From positions 1-64,000 of the forward strand of contig CANGOX010000004.1 of NCBI GenBank assembly GCA_947455605.1: a stretch of 64,000 nt of DNA, read 5' to 3'. The DNA is from Chitinophagaceae bacterium (lineage in GTDB: Bacteria > Bacteroidota > Bacteroidia > Chitinophagales > Chitinophagaceae). Positions 14,431 through 37,721 of the stretch are shown here, piece after piece; within the stretch, counting starts at the first letter, position 1, and each line of letters opens with the position of its first letter. The notes under the pieces were generated by a model that was not told the DNA's origin, did not search any database, and saw only the letters and a program-made list of their open reading frames with translations. A program made the translations under genes and the position numbers.

Positions 14431-17400
14431 ATGATTAAGCATAACCCCTTCAGACATTTATACAGTATGTTATGTATAATGTTACTGACTTTCCCCGTTC
14501 TCGGCGTTATTGGCCAAACGTATAGTTTTACCAATGCCGGCGCATCCGGTATTTCGGGTCCGTCGCAGACACAGGTGAATTCGGCATATACTTCCACTAC
14601 GCTTGCAGGCAAGGTAACCATTACCGGTTCGGGTATACAACAGTGGGTTGTTCCTGCAAACGGAACTTACTCAATTACCGCAGCAGGTGCACAGGGAGGT
14701 TCTACGCCTAGTGCAACAGGCGGTAGAGGAAGGATAATTGTAACTCAGTTAAATCTTACAGCGGGTACCGTACTGAACATACTTGTGGGACAAAGAGGTG
14801 GTTATGCTGAGTTTGCTGCTCCCGGTTATGTTGGCGGCGGCGGAGGCGGATCTTTCGTTATTAATCAAACTACAAATACGCCCATCCTAATCAGTGGTGG
14901 TGGTGGTGGTGCCGCGCAGGGAAATGCTTCATGGGGTTCTCCTGTTTTAAACGGAATAGATGCTCCTGAATATAATATAACCAGTGGCGCAAATGGTATT
15001 GGATATGCCCAAAGCTGGTCACAGGCAGGTTTAGGTGGTGTTAATGGTGGTGGTGGAACCAGACCAGGAAGTGGTGGAGCCGGCGGCGGTGGGTACACTG
15101 GAAACGGTGCAGGCGGAGGTTCTTATGCCGGAGATCCCGGTATTAGCTACCTAAATGGTGGTTTGGGCGGCGTGAACAGAGATTATTTTGGCGGCGAAAC
15201 CGTAAATACACCAGGAGGTTTTGGTGGTGGCGGTGGTGCTGCTACGCACTCAAACTATGAAGCCAATGCCGGCGGCGGTGGTGGATATTCCGGTGGTGGC
15301 GGTGGTAATACCCGTGTAGGCGCCGGTGGCGGTGGCGGTAATTTGTATACGGGTACTTTTGTTTCTTCTTCTTTAAATACCGGAAACGGTTTTGTAACCA
15401 TTACGAATTTATTAACGCCTGCAGGTGCTTTAAATTTTGTAAAATCAACTCCCTTATCAGGAAACTATATCAGTGTGCCGCATAGCAGTTCATTGAATCT
15501 CGGTTCAGATTTTACTATAGAAGCATGGGTAAATTATACCGGAACGGATAATACAATTATTGATAAAGGTGATTATGATTACTTACTGCAGATTAATTGC
15601 AGTAACCCGGGCTTTGCGCCAAATAAAATAGATTTTTACAATCGCAATACAGGTGCATGGGTACATTCAACAGGCACCCTTTCTCCGGGAGTGTGGAATC
15701 ATGTGGCTATTACATTAACGGGTGGGGTAATGACATTCTATATTAATGGTGTTGCTTCCGGTACAGCTAACGTAACATATACACAGGATAACGGCCCTGT
15801 GAATATCGGGCGACAGAATCCTATCAATTGTCTGTGTAATACATTTAACGGAAGCATGGACGAATTGAGGATCTGGAACAGGGCACTTCCTGCCTGTGAG
15901 ATTGCATCTACAAAAGATTGTGAACTATCTGCTGCAGGTGCAACTGGAATAGCAGCTTACTATAAATTTAATCAGGGCAATGTTGGTAGTGATAATACAT
16001 CCATTACTACCTTAACGGATGCCAGTGCAAATAATAATACCGGAACATTAGTTGGGTTTACAAAAACAGGTAATACCTCAAACTTTGTTGCGGGCCAGAT
16101 TGGCGGAACCTGTTCAGTATTTACAACGCCTGCTATATCTGCCGGAAGCAATAGTCCGGTAAATGCGGGTGGTTCAATCAATTTAACCGCATCAGGTACG
16201 AATGTAACAACGTATTCATGGGCCGGTCCAAACAGCTTTACTTCATCTACTCAGAATCCGACCATTTCAACTGCAAGCGCAGCCAATGCCGGAACGTATA
16301 CCGTTACCGGAACAAATGGAATTTCAAGCTGTACGGTAACAGCAACTACTTCTGTTTCCATCAATGCCCCTGCAACTGCTTTGAATTTTGATGGCGCAAA
16401 TGATTTTATTAATGTTCCTGCAAATGCGGCATTCAATACAGTAAACTATACTGCAGAGTGTTGGATCAACCCTAAATCTGTAGGTATCAATTTCCAGCAT
16501 ATTTTAGGTAAGCGTACATCTACAACAGGTTGGAACATTTTCCTAACCGGCGCTAATATTGTTCTTTGGAATGGGTATGGTCAGGTGATTACCGGACCAA
16601 CGGTTCCTGTAAATACCTGGACGCATATTGCCGTAACCGGTGATGCAAGTGGCCAGAAATTATATATCAATGGGCTTCCGGTGGGTTCAACAAATGCTGT
16701 TGTTAATCCGGCTACCCTACAGAATTTCAGGGTAGGTCTTACATCGGATGATAATTCATGGCCTTTTGGTGGAAGCATAGATGAGGTTCGTTTCTGGAAT
16801 CGCGCACTTTGTCAGAGCGAAATTCAGAATAATATGAACTGTAATCTTGCTGCTGCCGGCCAAACCGGATTGGTGGCATTGTATCATTTAGATAATGGTT
16901 TTGTGAATGGTACTAATACAGGTATCGCAAATATTACTGTGGCATCTGATGCAAGCGGCAATGGTTTTAACGGTACGCTTACCAATTTTGGTTTAACGGG
17001 TGCAAGCTCTAACTATGTTGCGGGCAATACCAGTGGAACCTGTTCTGTATTTACCACAACGAACTTTCCTGTTACCGGTTCAACTACTATTTGTGTAAGT
17101 GCTACAACACAATTAGCCAATGCGAATAGTGGTACATGGTCAAGTAGTAATACAGCTATAGCTACTATCAATGCATCTGGTTTAGTTACGGGTATTTCTG
17201 CAGGAACAGTTACCATAACCTTTACAAGCACATGCGGTAGCGTATCAACTGCCAGTGTAACAGTGAATGCATTACCTAATGCAGGTATAATAAAAACAGA
17301 TGTTAGCTGTGCCGGAAATAATGATGGGTCCATTACGGTTACTGCTACCGGAGGATCATTACCTTATCAATATTCCAGTAATGGTGGTGCAACCTATCAA

Positions 17401-20400
17401 TCTGCTAATATATTCAGTGGATTGGCTCCCGGCACTTATAGTATCGTTGTAAAGGCGGCCAGTGGTTGTGCAACAACGGCACAATCTATAACCATTATTA
17501 ACACGCCTGATGTAACTCTGCCGGTAGTAAGTACCCAACCGGTTACCGTAAGCCTTGATGCAAACGGTGCTGCCACTATAACTGAAGCGCAGGTAGATAA
17601 CGGAAGTTCTGATAATTGCGGAATTGCCAGCATAGTTGTTTCAAAAACCAATTTCAGCTGCGCAGACTTTGGTCCAAATACTGTTACCCTTACCGTTACA
17701 GATAAAAGTGGAAATGTATCAACTGGTACCGCTGTTGTAACTGTAATAGATAATATTCTTCCTTCCATAACAGCACCGGCAAATGTAACAGCTGTTGCCA
17801 ATAGTAGTTGTGTGGCACCGAATGTTACTTTAGGAACACCGGTTACTTCGGATAATTGCGGTATACTCAGTGTTACCAATGATGCACCTGCACAATTTCC
17901 AGTAGGTACAACCACTGTAACCTGGACCGTTACTGATACATATAACAATATCAATACGGCAACACAAACGGTTACTGTTAGCTATCAGCCAAACACAGTA
18001 TCGTTCAATACCTTACTTTCTGATACAGATATTAAAAACGAAGGGGCACTGGTTTCTGCCAATAACCTGGGTGCCAACGCAGCACCGGTACAGATAAATG
18101 GTGTATGCTTCTCAAACAGCCCCGCTAATCTTACCAATTTTGCTAATGGAGGCGGTGCATTCTGTGCAGATTGTGTGCCCGGAAGTTTATTGCAACAATT
18201 ATTGAATGCCCTGGTATTCCAGCCAAATGGTAATCTGTCAACCCTTACTATTGGCGGATTAACACCTTGTCACCGCTATCGTTTACAATTGCTGTACAGC
18301 AACGATGTAAACAGTACTGGTAACAATATTAACATAACGGTTAACGGACAAACCTATCATTTCGCTAACTGGATTCCTGCAGCTAAAAATCTGATTGTTG
18401 AGTTTACGGCAACGTCAACCAGCACCGTGGTTAGCTTCCTGGCTAATGATGGAGCAGAACCCAACAGAGCTGTATTGAATGCATATGCAGTGCATGATCT
18501 GGATCTGCCAAACAGCGCACCATGTAATTCGGCACCGGTTGCCAATGCAGGATCAGATATCAGTGTAAATGCAGGCAGCAATTGTTCTGGTACGGTTACA
18601 CTTGATGGAAGTGCAACAACAGATGCAGATGGATTAAATACACTTTCTTATACATGGAAAGAAGGATCAACTATATTAGGCACTGGTGTTACTTTGTCTA
18701 AGAGCTTTAGCTTAGGTACACATACGGTTAGCTTAACAGTAAAAGACAACTGGGGAATTCTTTCAACCGATATTGTAGTGATTACCGTTTCAGATGTAAC
18801 ACCACCATCAATAGTTTGTCCTGGTGATATGAGTGTAATTGCAAGCAGTGCTGCGGGAGCAGTAGTAACTTATGCTACACCTGTTGGAACAGATAATTGT
18901 TCAGGAGTAACCACTGTTTTGACTTCAGGGTTAGCAAGTGGTGCTACCTTCCCGATTGGAACAACGCATGTAACTTATACGGTTACGGATGGTGCGGGAT
19001 TAACTGCGAGCTGTTCATTTGCGGTTACAGTTAGCGGTTTAGCTCCGGTGATTGTATCTCCTGGTAATATTACGGTAAACAATGATCCGGGTCAGTGCAG
19101 TGCAGTTGTAACTTATGAAGCAACCGAATCAACCGGTGTGCCTGCATCAACAATATCTTATTCAATTCCTTCTGGCGGCACATTTGCCTTAGGTACAACA
19201 ACCGTAACGGCTATAGCTAGCAACGCAGTAGGTTCGTCAACTTGTTCATTTACAGTAACGGTGAAGGATGTAACGCCTCCAACTATTGTTTGTGCAGCAA
19301 ATATTACCGTGAATGCTAATGCAAATAATTGCAATGCCAATGTTGTAGTACCCAAACCAACCGTTTCTGATAATTGTGGTGGCTCTTATCCCGCGGCACC
19401 ATTTGCATCTAATAATTCGAATTTGATGCTTTGGATGGATGCAACAAGGTATAATGTTGCCAATGGTGCGAATATGAATGGAATTCTATCGGATATATCT
19501 GGTTATAATCGATCATTGACTACTAATGCAACTTTTGAAACATCAAGTATTAATGGGAGACCGGCTGTACGATACAATAACAATCGTACAATCGTGAACG
19601 CTCCATTCTCTACAAATGGCAATTCCTTCATTTATCTGGCGGTTCAGGTAGTAGCGGCTGGTACTCAGTGGGCATCTATACTTGACCATCATAGTAGGGA
19701 TATGGGTTTGGCTTTGGAACAGAGTGGATTTAAGTCTAGTAATGTATATCATTTCCAAACAGGTAATGACAATGCCAATGTAGAACAGAGTCTTACATTC
19801 GGTACGAATTATATTATGGCTTGTTCAATTATAGGGGGTAATCTGAGGTCATTCACTTTATATAAAGACAATAACGGAGTACTCCAAAACCTTGGAACAT
19901 CTACCAACAATACATTTAATGTTCAAATAGGTAATAACCACCTATATATTGGAAAGAGTGATGCGAATGAATATGCGAATATGAAATTGGGAGAGTTCAT
20001 TTATTTTCAGAACAGTCTTCCTGTTTCAGAAAGTAATGTGGTAAATTATTTATATAATAAATGGTTTGGCAATCAAATTTCTGTTACGAATAGTTTTAAT
20101 GGCACTAGTGATGCATCAGGTATTTATCCTGTAGGAAATACGAATGTTATCTGGACTGCAATTGATGCGGCGGGCAATTCGTCAACATGTGCGCAAAAAG
20201 TTACTGTAATAGATGCAACACCACCATCAATAGTTTGTCCTGGTGATATGAGTGTATTTGCCAGCAGTGCTGCTGGAGCAGTAGTTACTTATGCTACACC
20301 TGTTGGAACAGATAATTGTTCCGGAGTAACCACTGAGTTAACGGAAGGTTTAGCCAGCGGATCAACATTCGGGATTGGAACTACAAAAGTTACGTATACA

Positions 20401-23400
20401 GCAACAGATGCTGCGGGATTAACTGCGAGCTGTTCGTTCAATGTAACGGTATCGGGTTTAAAACCGGTAATTGTTGCGCCTCAGAATATTTCTGTTAGCA
20501 ATGATGCGGGTAAGTGTGGAGCGATGGTAAGTTATGCAGCTACTGATAACACAGGTATCCCTGCTTCAGTAATTACGTATTCAATACAACCAAACAGTTT
20601 CTTCCCGATTGGTTCAACTGATGTTGTAGCAACGGCTACAAATGCAGTGGGTACTTCAGTAGCAACATTCACAGTAACTGTTACAGACGATGAATTACCA
20701 ATTGTTATTACGAAGCCAATAACGATTCAGTTAAATGCTACGGGTAAGGCAAGTATCACTGTGGCAGACGTTGACAATGGTTCAAAAGATAATTGTGGTA
20801 TTACATCCTACAGTCTGGATAAAACAACATTTGATTGCAGCAATGTAGGACCCAATACCGTCACCTTAACGGTCACAGACATTCATAATAATGTGTCAAC
20901 CGGAACAGCGATAGTAACAGTAGAAGATAAGATAGCCCCAATAGTGATCACTAAGAATATCACTATTCAGTTGGATGCCAATGGTAATGCAAGCATCACA
21001 CCGGCTATGGTTGATGGAGGCTCTTCAGACAATTGTGGTATAGCTACAATGAGTATTTCACAAAGCAGCTTTACCTGTGCAGATATAACAGGGGCTGTTT
21101 CAACCAATACACAAACCATTGTTTCAGATGATACCTGGGCAGAGAGTAGTACTACTTATTCTACAGGGAATTATTGTCAAACACAGGTTTGGAACGGCGT
21201 TTCTTCACCAATGCCTACTGTTGGTTCTTATAGCATTGCTCCTACTATGTATGCGTATTCCGTAACACCAATTCCGGGTACAATGGGAATGTATGGACTG
21301 AATGGCGTAAGGTTCTTTAGAAAAACTTTTAACCTGAGTTCGGTGTCAGGAATAAAGGCAACTTTATTGGCTGCGATGGATAATGGGGTTCAGATCTTTA
21401 TAAATGGGGTGGCTGTTGCATATCAAGGCGATATGGCTAATTCTAATTTCAATGGCTTAGTTCCGGACAGGGTTGTTTTAAATTCAACTGGTGCCAATGT
21501 TAATGGCGGAGTAGGGTATCACTCCTATGATAATATAACCAATACCAATGCATCAAGTTTGTTCGTGGTTGGTACCAATGAAATCGTACTTGCTCTTGCA
21601 AATTGTGATGGTGGTGATAGGGGAGCAATAACCTTTAAGGCCATCATTGAAACAAATTCAGGAGGGGCAGGTTCGGTTGTATTAACAGTTACAGATGTAA
21701 ATGGTAATACAGCATCGGCAAATGCACAGGTAACGGTTGTGGATAATATTAAACCGGTTATCACCAGCAATGGAGATCAATCCGTAAACAATGATTTGGG
21801 TAAATGTGGTGCTCAGGTAAGTGTTAGTGCAAGTGCCACAGATAATTGTGGAGTAGGCGTACCAACAGGTGTAAGAAGTGATAATAAAGCCCTGACTGCC
21901 GAGTATCCTGTAGGCACAACTACTATTACATGGACAGTAACGGATAATAATGGTAATGCAGCCTTACCGGTTACCCAAACGATCATTGTAACGGATAATA
22001 CGATCCCTGTGATCACAACCAATGGAGATAAGTCGGTAAGCAACGATGCAGGTAAATGCGGAGCAGCCGTAGTGGTAAGTGCGAGTGCAGCTGATAATTG
22101 CGGAGTAGGCGCACCGTCAGGAGTGAGAAGCGATAACAAACCATTAAGCGATCCTTACCCGGTAGGTACCACAACGATCACCTGGACTGTAACAGATGTG
22201 CATGGTAACAATGCAGTACCGGTTACCCAGACCATCGAGGTAACAGACAATGAAAAACCAGTTATCACCAGCAATGGTAATAAGTCGGTAAACAATGACC
22301 CAGGTAAATGCGGAGCCACATTAGTGGTAAGCGCAACTGCTGCAGATAATTGTAGTGTAGGTGCACCGTCAGGTTTGAGAAGCGATGCTTTGGCATTGAC
22401 AGATCTTTATCCTGTAGGAACCACAACGATCAGCTGGACAGTAACGGATATCCATGGTAACATAGGTGTACCTGTAACCCAGACCATCGTGGTAACAGAT
22501 AATGAAAAACCAGTGATCGCCTGTGCACCGGATGTAGTGTTCTGTGCCAATTATGGCGGAGTAACCACTTATACGATCAACGCGCTTACGGCCGGTGATA
22601 ACTGCGGTATCCTCAGCACCACATACGCTGTAACCGGAGCCACTACAAGAAGTGGATCAGGCAATAATGCCAGCGGAGTATTTGCGGTAGGTGTATCTAC
22701 GATCACCTGGACAGTAACCGATACCCACGGCAACGTGAGTGTATGCAGCACAAAGGTTACGATCAACCCATTACCGGTAGCAAGCTTTGTAAGCAGCAAT
22801 GCAGATGCGTTCTGTAATAAAACAACCTTAACCGCTTCGTCAAACATCAACCCGGCAACGTACAGTTGGACTTCAGGTTCAACGCCTGGCAGCTTTATCG
22901 CCAATGCGGATCTGGTGTTGGGACTGACCAATGCAGATGGTATCTACAAAGTGTTTGTTAAAGCAACAAACACCGGTTGTATCAGTGAGTTTGCAGCATC
23001 GTACAACTACCAGAAACAAAATCTGGCAGGCAACTATACGATCCTTGCATACAAAGAAGTGGAACTGGGCAAATACAACAAGGTACAGACCGGAAGCGTA
23101 GGTGTGATGACGGCGAAAGGAGAAGCTGAGTTCAATGCCTATACATCGGTTAACGGACCTGGCGCTTTTGTGAAATCACCTAAGATCGATAAAGATGGTT
23201 CAGGTATCGTGATCCCAACCCAGATCATCGGATTGGCAAACGTAACCCTGCCAACGATGCAGTACAATACAGCCACCACGAATAACTTACCTAGTTATAC
23301 GGCTTCTGTAAACAATGCAACCTTAACCGGTAGCTACAAGAACCTTACAGTTAAGAAGGGCGTGAGTGTAACAGTAACAGCCAGTACGTTTGGCAGCATC

Positions 23401-24255
23401 CGTCTGGAAGAGGGAGCGAGCATCCGGTTTACTTCATCGGTACTGAATATCGACAACCTGTCGGCCGACAGAGGTGCTAAGAACAACGACTATAGCTATA
23501 TCCGATTTGCACCGAACACCAGTGTGCGGATGAGTGGATATGTAAGCTTCGGCAGTCAGGTATTGGTAAACCCAGAGGCGAACAAGGTAACGTTCTACAT
23601 GGGCGACCTTAGAAATGATGAGGAGAAGTTCACGGTAAAAGGTGGAGACACCAAAGTGATCGCCAATATCATTATGCCTGATGGTAAACTAAGGGTAACA
23701 GCAACTGACTGTGATGATGATAACCACGACAGCTGCGACCATAAAGCGCATGATGCGAGGAACTGTAAACACAGAGGCCATGACCACAATGATTGCGACC
23801 ACAGAGCCCATACAGCGGCCAGTTGTAATGATGATGTGTATATGACCGGACTGTTCATTGCAGAAGAAGTAGAGAGCAAGGGTAATACGGTTATCTGGAA
23901 CAGCTATGATTGCAGTTCACCTGTACCGAGCTATAGTGTAAACGCAGCGGCTACGGCTACCAATGCAACGGTAGAGAGCAAAGAAGCGGGCGTTACCACA
24001 GAAGAGGAACTGAAGATCACGGTGATGCCAAATCCAAGTACTACATACTTCACATTGAAACTGGAGAGCAAATATGCTACACCGGTAAATATGAGAGTAA
24101 TGGACGGAAGAGGCAGAGTGATCGATGCGAAATCACAGATCGGATCCAACAGCACGATCCAGATAGGTCATAATTACAGCAGCGGTACTTACTACGCTGA
24201 ACTGATACAGGGTACTCAACGTAAAGTGGTACAGTTGATCAAAGCAAGAGGGTAG
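14431..24255 (+). CDS. Giant multidomain surface protein (Gly-rich ALK-like domain, LamG-like, Big_2-like, SprB-like and HYR repeats, T9SS type A sorting domain)
   Basis: 3274 aa; signal peptide; Gly-rich 14700-15400; LamG-like segments (FTIEAWVN...WNHVAITL); many HYR modules (FPIGTTxVTYTVTDxxGxxxxCSFxVTV); C-terminus MPNPSTTYFTLKLESK...SSGTYYAELIQGTQRKVVQLIKARG. Confidence 0.9.
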   Translation: MIKHNPFRHLYSMLCIMLLTFPVLGVIGQTYSFTNAGASGISGPSQTQVNSAYTSTTLAGKVTITGSGIQQWVVPANGTYSITAAGAQGGSTPSATGGRGRIIVTQLNLTAGTVLNILVGQRGGYAEFAAPGYVGGGGGGSFVINQTTNTPILISGGGGGAAQGNASWGSPVLNGIDAPEYNITSGANGIGYAQSWSQAGLGGVNGGGGTRPGSGGAGGGGYTGNGAGGGSYAGDPGISYLNGGLGGVNRDYFGGETVNTPGGFGGGGGAATHSNYEANAGGGGGYSGGGGGNTRVGAGGGGGNLYTGTFVSSSLNTGNGFVTITNLLTPAGALNFVKSTPLSGNYISVPHSSSLNLGSDFTIEAWVNYTGTDNTIIDKGDYDYLLQINCSNPGFAPNKIDFYNRNTGAWVHSTGTLSPGVWNHVAITLTGGVMTFYINGVASGTANVTYTQDNGPVNIGRQNPINCLCNTFNGSMDELRIWNRALPACEIASTKDCELSAAGATGIAAYYKFNQGNVGSDNTSITTLTDASANNNTGTLVGFTKTGNTSNFVAGQIGGTCSVFTTPAISAGSNSPVNAGGSINLTASGTNVTTYSWAGPNSFTSSTQNPTISTASAANAGTYTVTGTNGISSCTVTATTSVSINAPATALNFDGANDFINVPANAAFNTVNYTAECWINPKSVGINFQHILGKRTSTTGWNIFLTGANIVLWNGYGQVITGPTVPVNTWTHIAVTGDASGQKLYINGLPVGSTNAVVNPATLQNFRVGLTSDDNSWPFGGSIDEVRFWNRALCQSEIQNNMNCNLAAAGQTGLVALYHLDNGFVNGTNTGIANITVASDASGNGFNGTLTNFGLTGASSNYVAGNTSGTCSVFTTTNFPVTGSTTICVSATTQLANANSGTWSSSNTAIATINASGLVTGISAGTVTITFTSTCGSVSTASVTVNALPNAGIIKTDVSCAGNNDGSITVTATGGSLPYQYSSNGGATYQSANIFSGLAPGTYSIVVKAASGCATTAQSITIINTPDVTLPVVSTQPVTVSLDANGAATITEAQVDNGSSDNCGIASIVVSKTNFSCADFGPNTVTLTVTDKSGNVSTGTAVVTVIDNILPSITAPANVTAVANSSCVAPNVTLGTPVTSDNCGILSVTNDAPAQFPVGTTTVTWTVTDTYNNINTATQTVTVSYQPNTVSFNTLLSDTDIKNEGALVSANNLGANAAPVQINGVCFSNSPANLTNFANGGGAFCADCVPGSLLQQLLNALVFQPNGNLSTLTIGGLTPCHRYRLQLLYSNDVNSTGNNINITVNGQTYHFANWIPAAKNLIVEFTATSTSTVVSFLANDGAEPNRAVLNAYAVHDLDLPNSAPCNSAPVANAGSDISVNAGSNCSGTVTLDGSATTDADGLNTLSYTWKEGSTILGTGVTLSKSFSLGTHTVSLTVKDNWGILSTDIVVITVSDVTPPSIVCPGDMSVIASSAAGAVVTYATPVGTDNCSGVTTVLTSGLASGATFPIGTTHVTYTVTDGAGLTASCSFAVTVSGLAPVIVSPGNITVNNDPGQCSAVVTYEATESTGVPASTISYSIPSGGTFALGTTTVTAIASNAVGSSTCSFTVTVKDVTPPTIVCAANITVNANANNCNANVVVPKPTVSDNCGGSYPAAPFASNNSNLMLWMDATRYNVANGANMNGILSDISGYNRSLTTNATFETSSINGRPAVRYNNNRTIVNAPFSTNGNSFIYLAVQVVAAGTQWASILDHHSRDMGLALEQSGFKSSNVYHFQTGNDNANVEQSLTFGTNYIMACSIIGGNLRSFTLYKDNNGVLQNLGTSTNNTFNVQIGNNHLYIGKSDANEYANMKLGEFIYFQNSLPVSESNVVNYLYNKWFGNQISVTNSFNGTSDASGIYPVGNTNVIWTAIDAAGNSSTCAQKVTVIDATPPSIVCPGDMSVFASSAAGAVVTYATPVGTDNCSGVTTELTEGLASGSTFGIGTTKVTYTATDAAGLTASCSFNVTVSGLKPVIVAPQNISVSNDAGKCGAMVSYAATDNTGIPASVITYSIQPNSFFPIGSTDVVATATNAVGTSVATFTVTVTDDELPIVITKPITIQLNATGKASITVADVDNGSKDNCGITSYSLDKTTFDCSNVGPNTVTLTVTDIHNNVSTGTAIVTVEDKIAPIVITKNITIQLDANGNASITPAMVDGGSSDNCGIATMSISQSSFTCADITGAVSTNTQTIVSDDTWAESSTTYSTGNYCQTQVWNGVSSPMPTVGSYSIAPTMYAYSVTPIPGTMGMYGLNGVRFFRKTFNLSSVSGIKATLLAAMDNGVQIFINGVAVAYQGDMANSNFNGLVPDRVVLNSTGANVNGGVGYHSYDNITNTNASSLFVVGTNEIVLALANCDGGDRGAITFKAIIETNSGGAGSVVLTVTDVNGNTASANAQVTVVDNIKPVITSNGDQSVNNDLGKCGAQVSVSASATDNCGVGVPTGVRSDNKALTAEYPVGTTTITWTVTDNNGNAALPVTQTIIVTDNTIPVITTNGDKSVSNDAGKCGAAVVVSASAADNCGVGAPSGVRSDNKPLSDPYPVGTTTITWTVTDVHGNNAVPVTQTIEVTDNEKPVITSNGNKSVNNDPGKCGATLVVSATAADNCSVGAPSGLRSDALALTDLYPVGTTTISWTVTDIHGNIGVPVTQTIVVTDNEKPVIACAPDVVFCANYGGVTTYTINALTAGDNCGILSTTYAVTGATTRSGSGNNASGVFAVGVSTITWTVTDTHGNVSVCSTKVTINPLPVASFVSSNADAFCNKTTLTASSNINPATYSWTSGSTPGSFIANADLVLGLTNADGIYKVFVKATNTGCISEFAASYNYQKQNLAGNYTILAYKEVELGKYNKVQTGSVGVMTAKGEAEFNAYTSVNGPGAFVKSPKIDKDGSGIVIPTQIIGLANVTLPTMQYNTATTNNLPSYTASVNNATLTGSYKNLTVKKGVSVTVTASTFGSIRLEEGASIRFTSSVLNIDNLSADRGAKNNDYSYIRFAPNTSVRMSGYVSFGSQVLVNPEANKVTFYMGDLRNDEEKFTVKGGDTKVIANIIMPDGKLRVTATDCDDDNHDSCDHKAHDARNCKHRGHDHNDCDHRAHTAASCNDDVYMTGLFIAEEVESKGNTVIWNSYDCSSPVPSYSVNAAATATNATVESKEAGVTTEEELKITVMPNPSTTYFTLKLESKYATPVNMRVMDGRGRVIDAKSQIGSNSTIQIGHNYSSGTYYAELIQGTQRKVVQLIKARG

Positions 24256-29630: not shown

Positions 29631-31049
29631 TCAGCTTTTTTCACGGCTTGTAACCGAGTTACCGGGGATGCCCGAGATCATCCCCCGGCATCCGGCTGCA
29701 CTACAACGGCATTGAAAGGGTTCCATATGTTCATCCAGGAATGAGGCATAGTCGAGGGTTAGCTCCTGCCCTTTTTCTATAGGGCTGATAGCCACAACAT
29801 TAAGTCCGTCGTAGCAAGTATTGGGTTCACAACAATGATTCTGTGGTGCCCATTCGGAAGGATTATTATCCCATAGCAGAAATACCTCATTACTTAAAGG
29901 ATATGCATAACGGGCAAACACCTGTTTCTCTTCATCAGACCAGTTCTCTTCTACAAAACGACGGGTAATGATGCGTTGCGATCGCCCCTCACCGTTAAAG
30001 ATGATTTCTTTGGGATGAATATTACGGGTTGCATAAATTCCATAGCCGGCGATCGCATTGCCTTTGATCGCATAATTTTTTAGTGTGCGACGGTGCCTAG
30101 CTATGCCTTCGGCGATCATATGTTGGAGAAAACCCGACTGACCGATCCCATCGTATTTCAGGATAAAATCGGCCGATCCTTCATATCCATCACTATAAAA
30201 AACAGAACAGGTAAAATTGATCTCAAGAAAGAACAGTTGCCCCTTTTCATTTAAACGAAAGTCGAGGCGGGCATATCCGGCACCATTGAAACCTTTAAAT
30301 ATACGGGCTGCGGATTCGCGCAATTCTTTTTCAATGACCGGATCTGTACAGGGGATATTCGCATCCGGGTGCAGTTCTGATGTTTTTAAGGAATAGGTTT
30401 TGAAAGCAAAGCCTGAAGGAAATATGTATTCTACCGGCTTAAAGGTGGTAGCCGTTTTTCCATCTGGATTGCCGGCGATCAAAACCGTAAACTCGCGTCC
30501 CGAAATATATTCTTCTGCCAGCAGTTGCGGATACTCAGGAAGGATTGACTTCACTTTTTGAATCAACGCTTCTTTGTTATGAACCAGTGAATGTTCATCA
30601 ATTCCCAAACTGTCACCAGCCTTGGCCGGTTTAATAAAAAGAGGAAATTGTAACCGTTCACAGGCGGTATCTATATCGGCTTCTTTCTCTATTAACAGGT
30701 AAGAAGGGGTGGCCACACTTTCGCAATAAGCCACATACTTCATCAGCTCTTTGGGTGGATCGTATAATAAAGTAGTAGGTCCGGTATAGGGAAGGCCTAA
30801 CAATTCCAACGTATAGATCACATCTATCGAGGGTACTTCCCATTCGAGATAACCTTCGCAGAGGTTCACGAAAATATCATATCCCTTATTTTGTAAGGCT
30901 TTGAGTTGTTGATAGGTAGTGAGTTTATTCAGTAACACATGATGTACTTCTGCTTCGGGCAATAAAGCTGAGAGGTCACGTGCAGGATCATAATATTGAT
31001 AATCCACTGCGGTTGTTGAGTAATCGGGTTGTAATACGCAGACTTTCAT
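29631..31049 (-). CDS. ATP-grasp (D-Ala-D-Ala ligase-like) ligase fused to C-terminal SET domain with post-SET Cys motif
   Basis: ATP-grasp: LFIKPAKAGDSLGI, AEEYISGREFTVLIAG, GYARLDFRLNEKGQLFFLEINFTCS. SET (about 29679-30077): AGYGIYATRNI, QNHCCEPNT, GQELTLDYA, FQCRCSAAGCRG. Confidence 0.9.
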   Translation of the reverse strand: MKVCVLQPDYSTTAVDYQYYDPARDLSALLPEAEVHHVLLNKLTTYQQLKALQNKGYDIFVNLCEGYLEWEVPSIDVIYTLELLGLPYTGPTTLLYDPPKELMKYVAYCESVATPSYLLIEKEADIDTACERLQFPLFIKPAKAGDSLGIDEHSLVHNKEALIQKVKSILPEYPQLLAEEYISGREFTVLIAGNPDGKTATTFKPVEYIFPSGFAFKTYSLKTSELHPDANIPCTDPVIEKELRESAARIFKGFNGAGYARLDFRLNEKGQLFFLEINFTCSVFYSDGYEGSADFILKYDGIGQSGFLQHMIAEGIARHRRTLKNYAIKGNAIAGYGIYATRNIHPKEIIFNGEGRSQRIITRRFVEENWSDEEKQVFARYAYPLSNEVFLLWDNNPSEWAPQNHCCEPNTCYDGLNVVAISPIEKGQELTLDYASFLDEHMEPFQCRCSAAGCRGMISGIPGNSVTSREKS

Positions 31050-32197
31050 GAATTGCTGAACGGAATATTTTTTTGATTGATCAAGGCTTCTTTTCTGCGG
31101 AAAGCATCATTCATGATCTCAACAATGAGTTGTGTGAATGATCTTCCGCTTACACGCAAGATAGCACCGATAGAGGTATAATTCTCATCTTCACTTATAC
31201 CACATTGGGCATTTACTTCAAGTACATATAATTGTTTTGAAGCGGCATCCATCCGGATGTCTACCCTTGTATAACCTGTACCTCCCGTGGCTATATAAGC
31301 ATCGAGACTGAGTTGCTTCAATGCGGCATGTAAACAAGGGTGTGGTAATTGGTATTCATAAAAATTTTCATTCTCCGGCATCGGTGTTTCTTCCTCATAG
31401 ATCTCCCATAATCGATCGAAGGACAGGAATTTTTCTTTTTCGGGTAAGGATGGATGGAATACCCTTTCTACGGGCTCATATACAATACATTGATCGGGGA
31501 AAAGGGACGACCCAACAATGAGTGTGGTAAATTCAGGTCCGGTAATAAATTCTTCTGCCACAATTCCGTCTGCAGCCAGGTTCCATCCACGGTAACCATC
31601 AAACATCTGCGCTATCTGCTCATGCAGTTCTTCCGCTGTTGATACCACATTTTTTACCCCCACACCCATACTGCCACCGGATACCGCCGGTTTCACGATC
31701 ACAGGTGTTCCCAGTCGTTCCAACAATCCATCCAGGTTTTGTTCTTTTGATAAAATAGCTTCCCATTTTGCATTGGGTACATGGGCTTTATCAAAAGCCT
31801 GTTTCATCGGGATCTTGGAAGTGGTGATGCGGTAAAAATATTCATCAGACCCGGTATACACCAGTTCTTTTTCTTCCAGCAATTTTACAACCGATATACC
31901 CGGTGTACCATTCACTTCATCGCCATCGCATAAATTCAGTACCAAGGGAAAATGAATACCATTGTTTTTTTCTTCAATGATCCTGTCTATTACTGAAACA
32001 TAATCATGTATCGTTACAGGCTGCCATTGCCAGGTGACACCCAGTTCTGCAAAGGTTTTTGTGTATTCGGCAATGCTTTGCGAAAAATCGTAGTAGTAAT
32101 CAATATTGGCATCCTGTGTTACCAGACTGGGGGCCAGCACCCACACTTTTAAACGGCTTAGTGGTATCGCATCAATCAGATCATCAACAGCAGACAT
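31046..32197 (-). CDS. ATP-grasp (D-Ala-D-Ala ligase-like) ligase
   Basis: VIVKPAVSGGSMGVGVKNV, AEEFITGPEFTTLIVG, GYTRVDIRMDAASKQLYVLEVNAQCGIS; paralogous to the next gene; 4-bp ATGA overlap with it. Confidence 0.9.
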   Translation of the reverse strand: MSAVDDLIDAIPLSRLKVWVLAPSLVTQDANIDYYYDFSQSIAEYTKTFAELGVTWQWQPVTIHDYVSVIDRIIEEKNNGIHFPLVLNLCDGDEVNGTPGISVVKLLEEKELVYTGSDEYFYRITTSKIPMKQAFDKAHVPNAKWEAILSKEQNLDGLLERLGTPVIVKPAVSGGSMGVGVKNVVSTAEELHEQIAQMFDGYRGWNLAADGIVAEEFITGPEFTTLIVGSSLFPDQCIVYEPVERVFHPSLPEKEKFLSFDRLWEIYEEETPMPENENFYEYQLPHPCLHAALKQLSLDAYIATGGTGYTRVDIRMDAASKQLYVLEVNAQCGISEDENYTSIGAILRVSGRSFTQLIVEIMNDAFRRKEALINQKNIPFSNS

Positions 32198-32200
32198 GGG

Positions 32201-32698
32201 TTATTTCTTCTTTCGGGGGTTCATTTTTTCAAGAATAAAATCAGTAAGCCGGTATCTGCCCGCTTCTTCTTTGCTCAGGTAAAAAGCACCCTGTATCCTG
32301 TGCAGGCACTGGTGGGTTCCGCAAAAGCAATCAAATGGCTGTTCCATTTTCCATTCGGTGGAAGGATAGAAGAACATCATTTCATCCCCGGGCTGTATCT
32401 CCTTAAGTGCCACCAGTTCCATAGTGGTTGTATTAAAGAAAACATTGGGGTTACAACTGTGATTGATATACTGTAGAAATTCCGGATCGAGTGTTATGTG
32501 TTTATCCTCGCCGGTTTGTACAGTGAGATAATTAGGTGTATCCAGTATTTTGTTCGCTCCAAATGCGCAGATCGTATCGCCCGCATCAAAGAATGCGGTG
32601 GCATGTAATGATTTTTCACCTGTACTGCTGTTTTGCATAATGTCTGCAAAACCATGCTTACTCAGCATTTTATACGCGGAAGTAACGGCCTGAATCAT
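32201..32698 (-). CDS. Stand-alone SET-domain protein with post-SET-like Cys motif
   Basis: LHATAFFDAGDTI, LQYINHSCNPNVFF, GDEMMFFYPSTEW, FDCFCGTHQCLHRIQG. Confidence 0.88.
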   Translation of the reverse strand: MIQAVTSAYKMLSKHGFADIMQNSSTGEKSLHATAFFDAGDTICAFGANKILDTPNYLTVQTGEDKHITLDPEFLQYINHSCNPNVFFNTTTMELVALKEIQPGDEMMFFYPSTEWKMEQPFDCFCGTHQCLHRIQGAFYLSKEEAGRYRLTDFILEKMNPRKKK

Positions 32699-32705
32699 AT
32701 GCTTG

Positions 32706-32782
32706 GGAGTATTAAAATGGTAATGGGTTTAAATTTCAATAAAATATCACTGTCTATCTATTTTATAGACGTTTAATACTCC
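32706..32782. promoter_or_regulatory. Nested inverted repeats upstream of the SET/ATP-grasp operon
   Basis: Outer 11-bp perfect IR GGAGTATTAAA (32706-32716)/TTTAATACTCC (32772-32782); inner 6-bp GTCTAT (32752-32757)/ATAGAC (32765-32770). Confidence 0.5.
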
Positions 32783-32934
32783 ACATTTAAAGCGTAATTA
32801 TTAACAGATAATAAAATGATGAATTACCCTCATGCAGAAAAATACCGTGTTTTAACGCTTGTTGGGATCAGTTGCGGTTTCTACTTTCGGTATATACCGG
32901 CACTCATTTGTTAAAAACATAAAAACAACTGTAT

Positions 32935-36032: not shown

Positions 36033-36503
36033 ATGAAAACGGCAACGATACAGGAACTGAAACAGGAGCTGCTGGCGGTTAACCAACCCAAACTGCTGGA
36101 GCTATGTCTGCGTTTGGCAAAATTTAAAAAAGAGAATAAAGAACTCCTCACTTTTTTATTGTTTGAAGCACATGATGAAGAAGCCTATATCAATAGTGTA
36201 AAGGAATTGATCGATGAGGGTTTTACTGAAGTGCCCAAGCCCAATTTATACCTCACCAAAAAAACACTGCGTAAAATATTGAGGATCGCTAACCGATATA
36301 TAAAATATGCGGGTTCCAAACAGGCAGAAGTGGCTTTGCTGATCCACTTCTGCCAAAAAATGAAAGGCTCCGGCATCCCTTATGCAAAAAGTACGGTATT
36401 GAATAACCTGTATGAACAACAATTAAAAAAGATCAATACCGCTTTACAAACCCTGCACGAAGATCTTCAATATGATTACCTGCGGGAGATCGATCTCCTA
36501 TGA
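36033..36503 (+). CDS. Hypothetical protein
   Basis: 156 aa, helical; plausible start and coding composition; ends 6 bp inside the convergent gene. Confidence 0.65.
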   Translation: MKTATIQELKQELLAVNQPKLLELCLRLAKFKKENKELLTFLLFEAHDEEAYINSVKELIDEGFTEVPKPNLYLTKKTLRKILRIANRYIKYAGSKQAEVALLIHFCQKMKGSGIPYAKSTVLNNLYEQQLKKINTALQTLHEDLQYDYLREIDLL

Positions 36504-37544
36504 TTCCTCATCGAAATAGAGTTTGTAAAAATGCTTTCCTTTTACTTCATCATAACCTTTTTCGATCAGGTCCTGGCGGCCATGAATGTAAACGTGAAAA
36601 CTTTTATCCAGCTTTAATACACTTTTAAAAACCCGTTGTTGTTTTTTTACGGCCGATAAATGGATATTGAATTCATCTTCAATTGCTACCTGCCGCGCTA
36701 CTTCATAGGTTTGTTTGTATTGAGTAAAACTGTCGATCACTTCCGGATGGTGCAATACTTCTTGGGCAAACTCGGCAAATTTAAAATCTTCCTTTGTTTT
36801 AAAATAGTCCATGCTACGGTTCAGCATGTCAATCTGGTCACTTTTGTTTACGTCAAACTTTTCGGGCAGCTCATTACTGATGAATAATTTACACATCCCC
36901 ATCGCCGCATCGGTAAAATGATAACTGTTGGCGCTCCTGGTTACCTGTAAAAAATCGGTAACCCAATATTGGGCATCATTCTGTTTATTGGTATTGTCTA
37001 CCACACAAACCACATAACCGTTCTCCCGGTCTTTTTTATAGATCAGACAACCCTTATCCAGTTTATTGATATTGATACCGTCTTCTGCGATCACTTCCCA
37101 GCTTTCGCCATGCGGGAATACTTTGAGAAAAGTTTCCTTGGTCTCGCTTTTAAAAATACCGATCGCTTCTGTGTACTCTCCCCCGAACGGAACATTACCA
37201 AACTGCACCACATACAATTCCCCTTCTTTTACCTTGGCATGCGTGCTTTTGCTATAGAGAAACTGCGCCAGCTGTGCGCTTTGCAAGGTAAACTGTTTGG
37301 GATCATCAAACATGGCGTTTACATAATGGTACACTTCGTTCAGTGCCAGATCACTTAAATGCGTAAAATGATACTGTTCATGTTCATTAAAAGGGCCAAG
37401 AAAATACTTAGAAAGCAACCCCCTTACAATTTCATCGTTGAGTGTTAAAGGGTTGGAGGATAGTTTCAGCGCTTCCCCTCTGGTGGGATTGCCTACTTTA
37501 TGAACGATCACTTTCTGTAATTCTACGCTGTCGATGGTTGTCAT
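36498..37544 (-). CDS. Nucleoid-associated protein (NdpA/YejK-like)
   Basis: Starts MTTIDSVELQKVIVHKVGNP; GELYVVQFGNV, DKGCLIYKKDRENGYVVCVVDN, YWVTDFLQVT typical of the family. Confidence 0.78.
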   Translation of the reverse strand: MTTIDSVELQKVIVHKVGNPTRGEALKLSSNPLTLNDEIVRGLLSKYFLGPFNEHEQYHFTHLSDLALNEVYHYVNAMFDDPKQFTLQSAQLAQFLYSKSTHAKVKEGELYVVQFGNVPFGGEYTEAIGIFKSETKETFLKVFPHGESWEVIAEDGININKLDKGCLIYKKDRENGYVVCVVDNTNKQNDAQYWVTDFLQVTRSANSYHFTDAAMGMCKLFISNELPEKFDVNKSDQIDMLNRSMDYFKTKEDFKFAEFAQEVLHHPEVIDSFTQYKQTYEVARQVAIEDEFNIHLSAVKKQQRVFKSVLKLDKSFHVYIHGRQDLIEKGYDEVKGKHFYKLYFDEES

Positions 37545-37721
37545 AGCCCGCGAAGATACTATCCTGTAATGATGGCTCACAGCCATTTTCAGGTCTTATA
37601 TCAGGGGTAAAGGGCTGTTTTGTAAAAGCAAATTCGTATTTCGGCCATAAATAACGCACCTTTACATCAGTTTTGAACTGCCCTGAAGGGCAATTAAGCC
37701 ATAAAAACCCCAACCACCCCA

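Follow-up and report, generated by a model that had tools for sequence, protein, structure and literature searches.

A conserved operon of SET methyltransferase and ATP-grasp ligase genes in Chitinophagaceae that may direct the synthesis of a methylated peptide-like metabolite

The window analyzed in this study, a stretch of 64,000 nucleotides from the genome of a Chitinophagaceae bacterium (contig CANGOX010000004.1, positions 1 to 64,000), contains three adjoining ORFs on the minus strand. The first (32698-32201) encodes a stand-alone SET/post-SET methyltransferase of 165 aa, P0001, here called SET1 (Pfam SET, 2.9e-9; BurB-like profile and AF2 fold). It is followed by the gene of a Ddl-type ATP-grasp ligase of 383 aa, P0002 or LIG (32197-31046; Dala_Dala_lig_C, 1.1e-15; profile against PDB leading to Ddl), and by that of a fusion protein, P0003 (31049-29631). 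The N-terminal ATP-grasp ligase domain of the fusion spans residues ~1-322 (30084-31049; Dala_Dala_lig_C, 3.6e-22; AF2 fold) and its C-terminal SET/post-SET domain residues ~326-472 (29631-30074; Pfam SET, 4.8e-9; motifs conserved in 76 orthologues). SET1 and LIG are separated by a 3-bp gap, while LIG and the fusion overlap by 4 bp (ATGA). The three-gene operon had been described in a first-pass annotation made from the DNA letters, and its ORFs, gap, overlap and domains were all recovered exactly. No Rfam elements were found in the window. Elsewhere in it, a secreted protein of 3274 aa with HYR, Laminin_G_3 and Ig-like domains and a type IX secretion tail is encoded on the plus strand (14431-24255), and an NA37-family (37-kDa nucleoid-associated) protein on the minus strand (36498-37586).

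An element of the form TGTTRATAAYT-N7-8-AAATGTGRASTAYTA lies at 32774-32806 (minus strand) and ends 75 bp before the SET1 start codon. It occupies the same site in close relatives, where it is 33-34 bp long and stands 65-76 bp upstream of SET1. Its strict pattern was found once in G000, once in G010 (a genome of the same genus as that of the window) and in none of 35 other genomes; it is unique in the genome, and 0 occurrences were expected in shuffles. A gene for a LuxR-type response regulator adjoins the element in divergent orientation, in the window and its closest relatives only. The element is likely to serve the operon as a dedicated regulator site. In the window, the element and the leader immediately ahead of the start codon also make up an inverted repeat. 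An RNA stem made of element and leader is present in the window, but its right arm is not conserved in relatives, and a DNA site was therefore preferred.

Pfam SET (PF00856) matched P0001 and the C-terminus of P0003 with 37.7 and 37.0 bits, against a curated cut-off of 22.4, and the cores INHSCNPN and NHCCEPN are both present. In SET1, residues N79, H80 and C82, the post-SET cysteines C124, C126 and C131 and the catalytic tyrosine Y111 were invariant (72 sequences); the same holds for N404, H405, C407, C447, C449, C454 and Y434 of the fusion (76 sequences). The NHxCxPN-type cores and post-SET-like cysteine clusters first read in the window are thus features of both families. The N-terminal GxG motif for SAM takes the form G335-Y-G337 in the fusion, while SET1 has G-Q/E-K-S-L and no recognizable GxG. 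Four aromatic residues preceding the NHxC core of the fusion (W370, Y381, W393 and W400) were invariant in 76/76 sequences and possibly line an aromatic pocket.

Among solved structures, BurB, and not a histone methyltransferase, comes closest to both SET families. When the SET1 family profile was compared with the PDB, BurB was the best match (8e-20), followed by a lysine methyltransferase (KMT) at 2e-8. The three top PDB matches to the AF2 model of SET1 (pLDDT 92.9) were three BurB chains, with TM values of 0.66-0.71, and KMTs came next. For the SET family of the fusion, BurB (5e-13) was the only SET chain at E <= 1e-12. In a SET tree whose resolution is limited by the short domain and long branches, SET1 and the fusion SET fell into two distinct old groups, both of which include Chlorobia sequences, and BurB grouped outside both, with SETs of Eleftheria and Sphingomonas; therefore, the chemistry and substrate of BurB are not directly transferable to SET1 or to the fusion SET. 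In Eleftheria, the gene of a close BurB homologue adjoins PKS, dioxygenase, aminotransferase and aldehyde dehydrogenase genes. Another short SET gene was seen overlapping a gene for a QueC-like PP-loop ATPase (L166:5343-6340).

With respect to the ligases, Dala_Dala_lig_C scored 58 bits for P0002 and 79 bits for the N-terminus of P0003 (curated cut-off 24). The catalytic ATP-grasp lysine (K169, K140) and the Mg-binding E-x-N (E327/N329, E276/N278) were invariant across orthologues, 20 of which were checked for LIG, and the earlier reading that both ligases retain them was borne out. The LIG profile matched Ddl in the PDB, and the ligase domain of the fusion model (pLDDT 91.2) had only Ddl enzymes as its top PDB matches. 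Both ligases share with Ddl and Van enzymes the fold, the ATP site, the lysine, the E-x-N and the conserved arginine of the acyl-phosphate site. However, the D-Ala-site motifs HGxxGEDG and PG-x-S are replaced in both by NLCxG and ExNxxC, and the NCBIfam Ddl models gave only 89 and 76 bits, far under their cut-off of 245.65. An ordinary Ddl is encoded on another contig of the same genome. The operon ligases have the D-Ala-D-Ala ligase fold with an altered substrate site; BacD of bacilysin synthesis is a weak match to them (9e-4). Plasmid pTHIMO01 of Thioflavicoccus carries a distant relative of the ligase part alone, together with SbnA-type, diaminobutyrate transaminase, ornithine cyclodeaminase-type and KamA-type genes, and this diaminopropionate-type setting suits the synthesis of a small peptide. 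The region itself (L203:3488-8969) combines diamino-acid biosynthesis genes with genes for a Ddl-like ATP-grasp ligase and a KamA-like radical SAM protein, and has the look of a small-peptide pathway not yet described.

LIG and the full-length fusion were found in the identical 39 of 299 genomes of the order Chitinophagales, a co-occurrence far above chance, although these genomes are mutually related and the nominal p-value is not one of independent observations. SET1 was present in 33 of the 39 carriers and in two other genomes. The exact same-strand order SET1-LIG-fusion was kept in 74 of 111 loci, not all from distinct genomes, with median gaps of 6 and 15 bp. This gene-neighborhood survey established that the triad is conserved well beyond the window. 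The locus of G010 corresponds gene for gene to that of Sediminibacterium magnilacihabitans (loci L038 and L068). The dN values were 0.13-0.30 with synonymous sites near saturation, and the operon is under strong purifying selection. Moreover, SET1 was unlinked from the operon but kept in four genomes (G150, G172, G296 and G326), and in G531 the fusion lies on a different contig from SET1 and the ligase, which indicates co-retention without linkage. SET1-like genes without ligases occurred in G078 and G165, once beside genes for EF-hand proteins. At one such locus (L181:7806-9883) three EF-hand genes and one small ORF stand upstream on the same strand, an arrangement that could reflect protein methylation. 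The carriers are soil and freshwater bacteria and include the named cultured strains Sediminibacterium goheungense DSM 28323, Sediminibacterium soli and Ferruginibacter paludis CECT 8366.

Other forms of the system were found outside the order. In the class to which G534 belongs, 6 of 250 genomes had the ligase region of the fusion, and in four of these six the full fusion stands alone, with neither SET1, a second ligase nor a transporter beside it. In G534 itself it adjoins genes for an FGase-family amidohydrolase, a MATCAP-type peptidase and a GshB-like ATP-grasp ligase. In Chlorobia, the operon comprises SET1, the fusion, a complete ABC exporter and, as its third SET gene, a short one, while the second ligase is missing; genomes of the family with this form encode FMO, the antenna protein of green sulfur bacteria. 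The third SET (~120 aa), at the end of the operon, forms a clade of its own (L150:10756-11112, L151:4812-5174). Since the fusion occurs without LIG in Chlorobia and alone in another class, it is the core of the system, with SET1, LIG and the transporter as lineage-specific additions. Viral contigs contained no relatives of the operon proteins, phages only generic Ddl, and plasmids only BurB-like SETs and one lone ligase.

A gene of ~300 aa for a transmembrane protein of ABC-exporter type without an ATPase domain (PF13748) lies directly 3' of the fusion, on the same strand, in 57 of the 111 loci (for example, L038:9818-10753). It is absent from the genome of the window, where no convincing remnant of an ABC gene was found in the window itself. 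The PF13748 protein and the Chlorobia exporter had no detectable BLAST similarity, for which reason a derivation of the former from the latter was rejected; the lack of similarity suggests that exporter-type transporters may have been recruited twice. Export would not be essential, given that the genome of the window has no such ABC gene and that the fusion stands without a transporter in another class.

We consider that the operon encodes a pathway in which amino acids are ligated and methylated to give a small peptide-like metabolite, independently of the ribosome and of NRPS, a reading to which we assign a probability of roughly one half. The small-molecule substrates, the reaction order and export are what we infer in this scheme. 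The fusion would be the core bifunctional enzyme: its ATP-grasp domain may form the acyl phosphate of an amino-acid-like carboxylate and couple it to an amine, while its SET domain would transfer a methyl group from SAM to the same small substrate or to the product. SET1 would add another methyl group, plausibly to a free amino acid in the way that BurB methylates methionine, and LIG would form a second amide bond in Bacteroidia. The product would probably be exported, by the ABC-exporter-type transmembrane protein in many relatives or by the full ABC exporter in Chlorobia. The first-pass annotation had proposed that the three products act together, and the conservation of the operon, the identical profile of the two ligases, the retention of SET1 where it has moved and the dedicated upstream motif together support this well. 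It had left the choice between a methylated peptide and a modified protein; the nearest solved SET being BurB, the ligases being of the Ddl type that acts on free amino acids, and exporter-type transporters accompanying the operon in two lineages, the small molecule is now favored.

The modification of a protein, in which some cellular protein would have its lysines methylated by the SET domains and would receive amino acids from the ligases as a tag or regulator, is an unlikely alternative. SET/post-SET domains classically methylate protein lysines, and this is the default reading of such domains. KMTs are indeed the next-best structural matches, and SET1-like genes do exist apart from ligases, as in the case with EF-hand neighbors. 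It must be considered, however, that BurB is the better match in both sequence and fold, that the ligases are not of RimK or TTL type, and that no co-conserved candidate target protein was found in the neighborhoods, where exporter-type genes stand; protein lysine methylation is not favored as the leading reading. Human TTLL12, like the fusion, pairs a SET-like domain with an ATP-grasp-class (TTL) ligase domain in one protein, but it is eukaryotic and of TTL type, and is reported not to catalyze histone methylation (PMC3520985). With regard to ribosomal peptides, a graspetide precursor was looked for as well; the genes abut, and the neighborhoods contained no additional conserved ORF of 70 aa or more that might encode one.

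A doubtful variant of the peptide pathway would have SET1 make S-methylmethionine from free methionine, with the ligases building a sulfonium dipeptide or tripeptide. Its attraction is BurB of Burkholderia thailandensis (PDB 9l4t/9l4v), likewise a small bacterial SET/post-SET enzyme, which converts free methionine into S-methylmethionine and holds it mainly by main-chain contacts (PMC12542666). BurB and SET1 have in common the stretch Y-x-S-T-E and the following post-SET cysteines, C-x-C-x4-C. Against the variant, the asparagine of NHxC, kept in SET1, is a leucine in BurB, and M132 and R133 of BurB align with E119 and Q120 of SET1. BurB also falls outside both SET groups of the tree, and none of the DMSP-pathway genes (decarboxylase, aminotransferase, aldehyde dehydrogenase) was found in the conserved neighborhood of the operon. 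Unlike the operon SETs, BurB has neither a ligase fusion nor a ligase partner.

Ddl homology and a transmembrane protein of ABC-exporter type would also suit a role in the cell envelope, in which a modified D-amino-acid dipeptide, destined for peptidoglycan or for a lipid headgroup, would be produced by the ligases, methylated by the SET domains and flipped by the ABC protein. This is quite improbable in view of the normal Ddl elsewhere in the genome, the loss of the D-Ala-binding motifs, the patchy distribution (39/299 genomes) and the conserved neighborhood, which holds no mur, van-type dipeptidase or lipid genes. Chance neighbors or decaying genes without joint function, as the absence of the operon from most genomes of the order and the occasional unlinking of SET1 might suggest, are refuted by the identical presence of LIG and fusion, the strong purifying selection and the invariant catalytic residues.

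Returning to the peptide-like metabolite, N-methyl-bacillithiol, a methylated thiol of Chlorobia, was rejected as its identity, because that compound has a methyltransferase gene of its own, the already described NmbA. The literature and family libraries searched, in which the coverage of surveys of ATP-grasp amidoligases is incomplete, yielded no description of a pathway composed in this way, and the earlier statement that no characterized pathway of this composition is known was borne out to this extent. The pathway is best placed, in our judgment, as a variant of the ATP-grasp peptide-ligase pathways and not as something categorically new. As in the known dipeptide and oligopeptide pathways of this kind, free-standing ligases stand beside enzymes that tailor amino acids; the difference is that tailoring would here be entrusted to SET methyltransferases, one of them fused to a ligase.

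More tentatively, and with less confidence than we place in the pathway itself, the products may form a new class of methylated small peptides, N-quaternary or sulfonium, whose core enzyme is a SET domain fused to an amino-acid ligase and which would be common to green sulfur bacteria, Chitinophagaceae and one more class of the phylum. Discussion of SET proteins in bacteria has mostly centered on chromatin effectors of pathogens and symbionts, and automatic annotation labels such proteins as protein-lysine methyltransferases. A conserved fusion of ligase and SET domains in free-living bacteria that most resembles, in its SET part, an amino-acid methyltransferase would show that the SET fold also serves metabolism. 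If the small-molecule reading is true, it corrects a common annotation and points to an undescribed metabolite; if the class of methylated small peptides is real, the SET domain would have a dedicated role in the biosynthesis of small-molecule peptides.
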